DNA of 64,000 bases from the NCBI GenBank assembly GCA_029260075.1, contig JAJDDY010000090.1:1-64000 (forward strand). The letters run 5' to 3'. The translations under genes and the position numbers were made by a program. Below the pieces are notes generated by a model. It was not told the DNA's origin. It was given only the letters and a program-made list of their open reading frames with translations, and did not search any database. This document shows positions 15,636 to 17,930 of the stretch, piece by piece (the stretch's first letter is position 1; each line of letters begins with the position of its first letter). The DNA is from Phycisphaerae bacterium. Its GTDB lineage: Bacteria > Planctomycetota > Phycisphaerae > UBA1845.

Positions 15636-15965
15636 ATCCGAAATCCCTCCGCTCGCGAGCTCGCTCCAATCTGTGGCGAGTGGGGCGGAGTGTGATCGAA
15701 TCGCGGCGAAGACTCAAGACCCCCACTCAAACACGGCACGAGGGCCATTATTGGACGATTCGGTAGCGGACGGACTGGTTGGGGGCGGCGACGTAGACTG
15801 TGGCTGCGCACGTTGGTCCTGAGCGCGAAGCCGATTGGATACTGGTTAGTTCTAGTCCTCGGCAGGGGTTGTGATTTCCTCTGCGATGGCTCGCGAGTCG
15901 TCGGCGGGTTGGTGCTCGCCCGATTGGCGACCGGGGCGGGCTGGCGTAAATTGTACGAAGAAAAC

Positions 15966-15994
15966 TTGACGGACACCTCCGACGCCTGTATACT
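15966..15994 (+). promoter_or_regulatory. Strong sigma-70 promoter facing a gene-free region
   Basis: TTGACG at 15966-15971, exactly 17 bp, TATACT at 15989-15994, so transcription would start near 16001. No convincing reading frame follows before the terminator at 16857. A second TATACT lies at about 16039-16044. Confidence 0.7.
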
Positions 15995-16000
15995 TTACCG

Positions 16001-16878
16001 GACGAGTTAAGATTTTGGCGGTTTTTTGGGTGAAATGGGCAGACAGTATACTACATCATAATTTGAGACACGATTATCCGTTGTTGATAATTACCTAACT
16101 TTGGCATGGCGTGCGTTTGTTCGCCGGGCCAGTCTGATCCGCCCTCATCAGCTTCATAAAAAACCAGTCCTTCATTCAAACCGCCTCTAATCAAAGCTTG
16201 TACATCGTGCGTCTCTGATTGTTTGCGCAATTCGTTGTGTGGGCTTTCGGTGTGTCTCTGTGCGCGTTTGTTGCGCCTTGGCTGCGCGGGATGTATTGGC
16301 CGATCTACCAGCTATTTCGCGGCGAAACGGGGGTTTCGCTCTTGCGATTGTGGTTTGAGGTACGGTTGTCGATGCGGTTGGGAATCAACAAATCTAGGTC
16401 GCGGCTCCTTAGGGGGGCCTATTGCGGAACGCCTTGGCGCGTGCCGTGCTGCGTGTCGCGATCGCTTGGGGTGCAGAATTTCAGAAGTGACTTGGTGAGT
16501 CATGTTGCCTTGGGGAAAAACCGAAACCTCCTCCTTCCCACCTTGGTAGCGTACGGCGTCGCGGGTATTGACCGGGACTGGACCGCTTGCGGTTCAAGAC
16601 CGTTGATGCCCGCGTACGCCGGCGCGACCGAGGGTGTATTGGGGAAGAGAATCGACGAAGTCTTTAGAACAAGGATGGCCTAGCCGCCTCGGGAGCCCAA
16701 AGGGGGTGCCGAGACACAGGAATGGGCGGTGGTGGGGACCAACGTGCCCAGGACTGTGGTGCAGCTACGGGCGACCGGGCGGCAGCCATCCTTACTTCAG
16801 ATAGTAGCACAGTTATCGGGATTTGCCACCCGAAAAACCATTTTCTACACGAATCGCCCTACTTTGTAGGGTTTTTTT
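16001..16878 (+). ncRNA. Candidate long structured non-coding RNA
   Basis: Between the promoter at 15966-15994 and the terminator at 16857-16878 the DNA lacks a credible protein. Its 3' half is highly structured. 16555-16620 is a hairpin of about 17 bp (GGCGT.GCGGGTATTGAC / GTTGATGCCCGC.ACGCC with G-U pairs). 16673-16791 is closed by GGATGGC..GCCGCC / GGCGGC.GCCATCC and holds two inner hairpins, CTCGG/CCGAG (16687-16712) and CACAG..GGGC / GCCC..CTGTG (16715-16758), giving a three-way junction. I checked against features of RNase P RNA, tmRNA, SRP RNA, 5S rRNA and common riboswitches and saw no diagnostic motif. The 5' boundary is inferred. Confidence 0.45.
16857..16878 (+). terminator. Intrinsic terminator
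   Basis: Stem CCCTAC / GTAGGG with a TTT loop followed by seven T residues (16872-16878). It would end a plus-strand transcript from the upstream gene-free region. Confidence 0.85.
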
Positions 16879-17033
16879 GTGCGCTCCCTGTCTTCGCTGT
16901 CGCGTACGCCTTCGATAGTCCGGTCACGCACGGATTGTCTCGCGAGTATTGTGATACCTGCCCGCGACCACGTTGGCCTATTCACCGCGCCGACAAGTAC
17001 GCAGCATAGTTATCGGCTGTGGCTCGACGGCGG

Positions 17034-17062
17034 TTGTGGGGCCATGCAGTGGTTCCTATACT
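17034..17062 (+). promoter_or_regulatory. Sigma-70 promoter for cysC
   Basis: TTGTGG at 17034-17039, 17-bp spacer, TATACT at 17057-17062, about 40 bp before the cysC start. Start near 17069 would give a leader of roughly 33 nt. Confidence 0.6.
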
Positions 17063-17101
17063 CTCGGTCAACATTCATGAAACCTGTGTAGGAGACAACA
17101 C

Positions 17102-17722
17102 GTGACGAACATGAAAGCGACCAATATCACCTGGCACGAAGGCCACGTCGGTCGAGAAGAACGAGAGAAGCTGTTGAGTCAAAAGGGGGCGCTGATCTGG
17201 TTTACCGGGTTGAGCGCGTCGGGCAAGAGCACTATCGCATACACGCTTGAACATGCCCTGGTACAGCGCGGGCATCTCGCCTACGTGCTCGACGGCGACA
17301 ACATCCGCCACGGGCTCAACAAGAACCTTGGTTTTTCCGCCGAGGATCGAAAGGAGAACATCCGGCGTATCGCCGAGGTGGGCAAGCTATTCGTCGATAC
17401 GGGTGTGGTTACGCTGACGGCGTTCATCAGCCCGTACCGTGGCGATCGCGATGCCGCACGTGAGACCGTGGGCGAAGGTAACTTCTTCGAGGTGTTCTGT
17501 GACACGCCGCTGGCGGTTTGTGAAGATCGCGATCCGAAAGGACTGTACAAGAAGGCACGCGCGGGAGAGATCAAAGGGTTTACCGGAATCGACGATCCGT
17601 ATGAGGCGCCGAACAAACCCGAGATGGTTATCGACACGTCGAAGATGAGCCCGCAGGAGGCAGCCATCAGCCTTTGCGACATGCTCCAAGAGGCCGGGAA
17701 AATCAAGCCGATTTCGGAATAG
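17102..17722 (+). CDS. cysC: Adenylylsulfate kinase
   Basis: A 206-residue APS kinase that phosphorylates adenylyl sulfate at the 3' hydroxyl with ATP to form PAPS, for sulfate assimilation or sulfation. The P-loop GLSASGKST lies near residues 37-45, followed by the family motifs [46 protein letters not shown] and [13 protein letters not shown]. Start GTG was chosen because GGAG at 17091-17094 is spaced 7 nt from it. It stands alone without an ATP sulfurylase (cysD/N) neighbour, so it may supply PAPS from APS made elsewhere. Length is typical. Confidence 0.95.
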
Positions 17723-17792: not shown

Positions 17793-17930
17793 CAGCCTGT
17801 TGAATAAGTGTGGCACCGGCTTCCAGCCGGTGATCCATTAGCGATTTCCGCCTCTTGACCGGGACAAATCCCGTTGTCACGGGCGGGTTCGCGGCGACGT
17901 GATTGAATATCAGACTTGTTCAACAGACTG
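17793..17930. mobile_element. MITE-like element, CAGACTGTTGAACAA ends (copy 1)
   Basis: Imperfect terminal inverted repeats CAGCCTGTTGAATAAG and CTTGTTCAACAGACTG flank about 138 bp with the internal palindrome CACCGGCTTCCAGCCGGTG. No coding capacity. Lies between cysC and the HAD-like gene; the long in-frame extension of that gene into this element is not considered real. Confidence 0.75.

Follow-up and report, generated by a model that had tools for sequence, protein, structure and literature searches.

Among the large structured RNAs described in bacteria, the classes OLE, GOLLD and ROOL have structures supported by covariation and form RNA-only complexes, and the genes for GOLLD and ROOL belong to phages and prophages and often sit close to tRNA islands (as given in the available part of PMC12286853). 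From the Planctomycetes, the Rhodopirellula-1 motif is listed as a candidate RNA, also present in Proteobacteria (PMC2864571, from the portion that holds the table); the table passage shows no Rfam number for it. The accessible portions of the literature searched, on structured and non-coding RNAs of Planctomycetes, Planctomycetota and Phycisphaerae and on large bacterial RNAs, contained no RNA like the one described here; a survey published in 2017, with 224 candidate RNAs, was covered only through the families that are in Rfam.

The window analysed is a 64000-base stretch (G000:C89:1-64000) within a 4.9-Mb assembly. A sequence-only reading of it had proposed a candidate new non-coding RNA between a promoter and a terminator, and comparison with related genomes supports such a candidate. 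Like OLE, GOLLD and ROOL, the predicted RNA is long, structured and non-coding, and its function is unsettled. It differs from them in lacking an Rfam match in a scan of the whole library and in the simpler form of its conserved part. In addition, no phage or plasmid match was found for it, in contrast to GOLLD and ROOL, which the part of the source available describes as phage-borne. The features of the locus are as follows.

15966–15994, plus strand: sigma-70 type promoter motif, TTGACG-17-TATACT
15999–16878, plus strand: predicted transcript, its start (about 16000) placed by the distance from the −10 box and the onset of conservation, its end by the second terminator
16017–16023, plus strand: 5′ arm of helix P2 (GGCGGTT), which closes domain D1
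16035–16148, plus strand: P3 region, AUGGGC (16035–16040) opposite GCCCUCAU (16141–16148)
16179–16185, plus strand: 3′ arm of P2 (AACCGCC)
16190–16505, plus strand: middle region, differing between genera in both sequence and length
16507–16517, plus strand: D2 leader GCCUUGGGGAA, which most homologs conserve
16535–16636, plus strand: D2, a long interrupted hairpin
16535–16542, plus strand: C-rich element UUCCCACC, whose possible pairing partners are the D3 loop GGUGGGG and, for part of the element, the base of D2
16670–16796, plus strand: D3, a long unbranched hairpin with internal loops, the subject of covariance models R1 and R2
16731–16740, plus strand: apical sequence of D3, GGUGGGGACC, identical in 11/11 homologs
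16856–16878, plus strand: predicted intrinsic terminator 3′ of D3, a stem (16856–16872) followed by T's

Homologs of the RNA were sought by sequence and by structure. A blastn search of 60 relatives with the window RNA returned one true homolog, L003 in genome G031, and L003 in turn matched 10 of the 51 genomes of the family. On inspection, six of these 10 (G031, G065, G002, G032, G069 and the genome of the window) contain full homologs. The six served to build a covariance model of D3 (R1), with which 114 genomes of the order were searched; it identified 11 genomes, all of one family, five of them new (G001, G011, G013, G025 and G062). All five new loci keep GTGGGGACC, and in three of them CTCCC(A/G)CC also occurs, some 220 bases upstream and beyond the region modelled in R1. 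A second model (R2), built from all 11, was applied to 397 genomes of the class and recovered the same 11 together with two matches of about 25 bits, as chance predicts. These searches scored first-look candidates per genome (31 with R1 in the order, nine with R2 in the class), so that absence from a given genome is weak evidence.

A pattern for the D3 loop matched in 25 of the same 397 genomes. The 18 extra loci found in this way had neither a promoter nor a C-rich element at the right distance, and 17 of them, along with the two weak R2 matches, reached at most 15.9 bits when rescored with R2. When the C-rich element and the loop were combined in one pattern and sought in a collection of named genomes, six contigs were returned, all from Planctomycetota or Phycisphaera (G032, G013, G069, G062, G031 and G065).

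Five other loci were rejected as full homologs, none having D3: L002, a stretch of a lon-like ORF, and L039, L041, L042 and L045, which contain a short repeat similar to the D2 5′ arm. Four further family genomes have this repeat (CTCCCGCCTTGGTCGC..TTCAGGGTCGCG) but nothing else of the RNA (L039 1501–1541, L041 1501–1529, L042 1501–1531 and L045 1501–1527), and it is perhaps dispersed. The similarity to L002 involves 33 bases of the variable middle (16433–16465 in the window), 91% identical to L002 1501–1533; in G027 the latter are on the opposite strand, inside the lon-like ORF, and the resemblance may be due to chance or be a remnant.

The RNA is thus carried by 11 of the 51 genomes of the window's family, distributed over seven genera, with one match per genome. 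Within the seven carrier genera, 11 of the 12 genomes examined have it, and the genome in which it is missing is 71% complete. It was not found in the other 40 family genomes, for which both real absence and missed matches are possible. An APS kinase gene tree (30 rows, including 7/11 carriers) gave no resolution on whether the carriers form a clade.

The promoter consists of a −35 box TTGACG (15966–15971) and a −10 box TATACT (15989–15994), separated by 17 bases. The pattern TTGAC-N17/18-TATACT occurs once in the 64 kb, at this site (mean in shuffled sequences 0.01). Each of the 11 homologous loci has exactly one TTGAC promoter, close to the sigma-70 consensus and with a spacer of 16 or 17, upstream of the D2–D3 core; the second box reads TA(T/G)N(C/T)T across the loci, and in all 11 sequence conservation begins directly 3′ of the promoter. 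The promoter, P2 and the terminator were searched for when the homologs had already been seen. At the 3′ end, a run of five to seven T's directly follows D3 in 8/11 homologs. The exceptions are G011, G065 and the window, the last of which has a second terminator in its place, with the stem at 16856–16872. This was the one terminator-like site in the region searched, a number that alone is not above chance (shuffled mean 1.7). Both ends claimed by the sequence-only reading, the TTGACG-17-TATACT promoter and the closing terminator, are therefore borne out, the former as unique in the window and shared by all homologous loci, the latter as a site that taken singly lies within chance. The predicted RNA is about 800–880 nt in the window, and from the conserved start to the end of D3 the length is 592–904 nt over the 11 homologs.

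The earlier claim that the stretch contains no credible protein also holds. The list of ORFs has no credible gene between promoter and terminator, the longest plus-strand ORF being 154 aa, and no coding frame common to the homologs was found. Translated similarities were scattered over many frames and both strands, as expected from similarity at the DNA level.

Comparison of the homologs reveals a conserved 5′ domain, D1 (approximately 16000–16186), which was absent from the earlier description. It is closed by P2, in which 5/7 pairs are changed on both sides among the 11 sequences (slid controls, 1–4). In D2, 13/25 pairs are changed on both sides (slid controls, 1–4). Both counts derive from MAFFT alignments, the P2 columns and the D2 structure having been picked on those same alignments. 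Tests that do not depend on an alignment gave concordant results: own partners in P2 outpaired swapped partners (p = 0.001), and for D2 the own-partner score was reached in 0 of 10,000 permutations. The other putative helices of D1 did not show covariation. P3, the 3′ side of which is AUGAGCGG or CCGCmCUC in most relatives, is conserved without covariation across the homologs. A helix P1, crossing P2 as a pseudoknot, was rejected (p = 0.12), its score being reached by 110 of 500 shuffles and equalled or bettered by a slide of +3. In most homologs, D1 as a whole folds no better than shuffled sequences (z between −1.9 and +0.8). The distance from D1 to the core varies with the middle region.

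The D2–D3 core is strongly structured. The region 16520–16885 has a minimum free energy of −173.8 kcal/mol (z = −6.6 against shuffles), and D2 and D3 together outfold dinucleotide shuffles in 11/11 homologs (z from −2.9 to −8.5). In D3, 17/32 pairs are changed on both sides, with slid controls of 5–9 in an alignment (A5) that was fitted to the model structure. The hairpin that had been noted at 16555–16620 is real and forms part of the longer conserved stem D2. The three-way junction proposed at 16673–16791 needs revision: the element exists and is conserved, but folds of single sequences and the 11-sequence model both yield an unbranched, interrupted hairpin, D3, in place of a junction. Conservation and covariation, which the sequence-only reading had named as a check on a new RNA, are thus both found, with 11 homologs and, judged by slid and shuffled controls, covarying P2, D2 and D3.

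Two partly exclusive pairings are open to the C-rich element at the start of D2, with the D3 loop and with the base of D2. A kissing contact between D2 and D3 can form in most homologs, but did not covary (p = 0.34); because the paired sequences vary too little, this contact is unproven. The motif UCCCRCC within the element is conserved in 9/11 homologs. Other bacteria are known to use C-rich seeds that target ribosome-binding sites, and the RNA could by analogy be a large base-pairing regulator in which UCCCRCC binds the purine-rich ribosome-binding sites of target mRNAs, is hidden by the D3 loop or the D2 base in the off state, and is mainly protected and presented by the fold. The conservation of the motif and its capacity to pair in two partly exclusive ways agree with this. 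However, the element is predicted to be paired, two of the 11 homologs depart from the motif, and the size of the RNA and its three conserved modules exceed what a seed requires. We consider such a regulator rather unlikely. A role as a CsrA sponge was also considered and rejected, the count of GGA not being consistently above that in shuffles.

The absence of the RNA from known families was examined with Rfam 15. At gathering thresholds, the only match in the window was tRNA-Cys, on which ARAGORN concurs. In a permissive scan of 15900–17100 the best match was isrK (RF01394), which scored 24.5 bits where the gathering cut-off is 50; two others were weaker, both with E > 2. The isrK match (16801–16877), at half the gathering score, covers the terminator only and lies outside the conserved RNA. 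None of the ten other homologous loci had a match up to E = 1. An Rfam hit was what the sequence-only reading had named as a result that would count against a new RNA, and the scans were negative for the window RNA and the ten other loci. OLE, GOLLD and ROOL are included among the Rfam families, and their models were matched neither by the window RNA nor by these ten loci in the whole-library scans.

The same reading had left room for a diverged known RNA, although it found no match to RNase P RNA, tmRNA or SRP RNA. The latter finding is confirmed, since the genome has its RNase P RNA, tmRNA and SRP RNA on contigs C2, C8 and C52, and not at C89:16000–16880. The case of 6S RNA is less simple. 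Rfam detects 6S (RF00013) neither in the window nor elsewhere in its genome, and under strict filters a 6S RNA was found in 35 of 60 relatives and, among the eight carriers included in those 60, in G002 alone, so that 6S appeared rarer in carriers of the RNA than in other family members. The two RNAs also share some properties, both being free-standing and D3 being a hairpin with a large internal loop, but the window RNA comprises three modules and 592–904 nt. With laxer filters, 5/11 carriers have a separate, full-length 6S-like match (25.9–39.5 bits, all below the cut-off of 46.4). This weakened the apparent anticorrelation, and replacement of 6S was rejected; the pattern largely reflects the sensitivity of the model, and with 6S-like loci elsewhere in these carriers the window RNA is unlikely to be 6S. 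Together with the absence of any Rfam match to the RNA itself, this largely refutes a diverged housekeeping RNA of the 6S, RNase P, tmRNA or SRP type, which is now highly improbable. More generally, the 6S model of Rfam has very little sensitivity in this Planctomycetota family, with scores from 68 bits down to sub-threshold values and the filters deciding the outcome.

The genes flanking the RNA were called by ORF, with a Pfam scan of 20 of them. A gene for an M32 carboxypeptidase (M32 peptidase) adjoins the RNA in the window and in G011. Upstream, G031, G002, G025 and G062 have a TPR lipoprotein gene, as does G069 judging solely by sequence likeness. Downstream and oppositely oriented, a Gfo/Idh/MocA oxidoreductase gene was identified by Pfam in G002 and G069 and by likeness in G025 and G062. 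Also downstream are genes for beta-helix or repeat proteins (G031 and G065) and an outer-membrane efflux protein (G032). Near the RNA lie genes for Zip and nitroreductase proteins in G001 and for a patatin-like protein in G013. As the neighbours differ between lineages, the RNA is best regarded as a free-standing gene, a constant element amid changing surroundings that is neither a leader nor bound to one operon. The window also contains, at 17797–17926, about 130 bases between imperfect 13-base inverted repeats (CTGTTGAATAAGT and ACTTGTTCAACAG) with an inner GC-rich palindrome (ACCGGCTTCCAGCCGGT), which resembles a small element of the mobile or REP-like kind.

In the window, the next gene downstream is suggestive of a different role. 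The APS kinase gene cysC starts at 17102, about 220 bases past the terminator, and the RNA might be its cis-acting leader or a riboswitch. Yet the terminator separates the two, other genes or convergent genes follow the RNA elsewhere, and D3 was not found at the other cysC loci of the family available for comparison. The link to cysC was accordingly rejected; the context contradicts a leader, which we hold to be the least probable of the explanations considered. The patchy occurrence of the RNA (11/51 family genomes) could alternatively indicate a mobile or defence-linked RNA, such as a retron, an intron or a CRISPR-associated or phage RNA. Against this, there is one match per genome and the RNA is stable inside genera; no reverse transcriptase or nuclease was present among the 20 scanned neighbours, and no match was found in the plasmid and phage collections or, by pattern search, in viral contigs. 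An origin of this kind is very improbable.

The locus thus combines the three marks of a free-standing ncRNA gene, namely its own promoter motif, covarying structure (D3, D2 and P2) and independence from its neighbours. From these comparisons of sequence, we give a probability of roughly 0.6 to the reading that it encodes a large structured ncRNA, free-standing and trans-acting, probably a folded scaffold, of a family absent from Rfam. The RNA would be made as a single transcript, folding during synthesis into D1, D2 and D3, and would serve as a folded scaffold, with a protein bound to it or as a particle of RNA alone. D2 and D3 would dock onto each other, with the C-rich start of D2 and the invariant G-rich D3 loop as possible contacts, and the variable middle would be a tolerated spacer. 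A scaffold or particle is preferred over a simple antisense RNA because of the size of the RNA, its single copy, its stability inside genera and its lack of a gene partner, although the choice between scaffold and regulator is a judgement. It is conceivable, if doubtful, that the RNA represents a new large ornate class of one Planctomycetota family, working as a particle, of RNA alone or with protein, or even as a ribozyme, in which D3 serves both as the intrinsic terminator and as a docking element and the C-rich strand switches between two states, on the D2 base or the D3 loop.

To our knowledge, few bacterial ncRNAs of this length with covariation-supported structure have been described. 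Three such large RNAs proved to form unexpected RNA-only assemblies, according to the available part of PMC12286853. The RNA described here would add a further large-RNA family, in a phylum for which the literature searched holds no such RNA, and it offers a defined predicted transcript, with boundaries and a structural model, that is ready for synthesis and testing.
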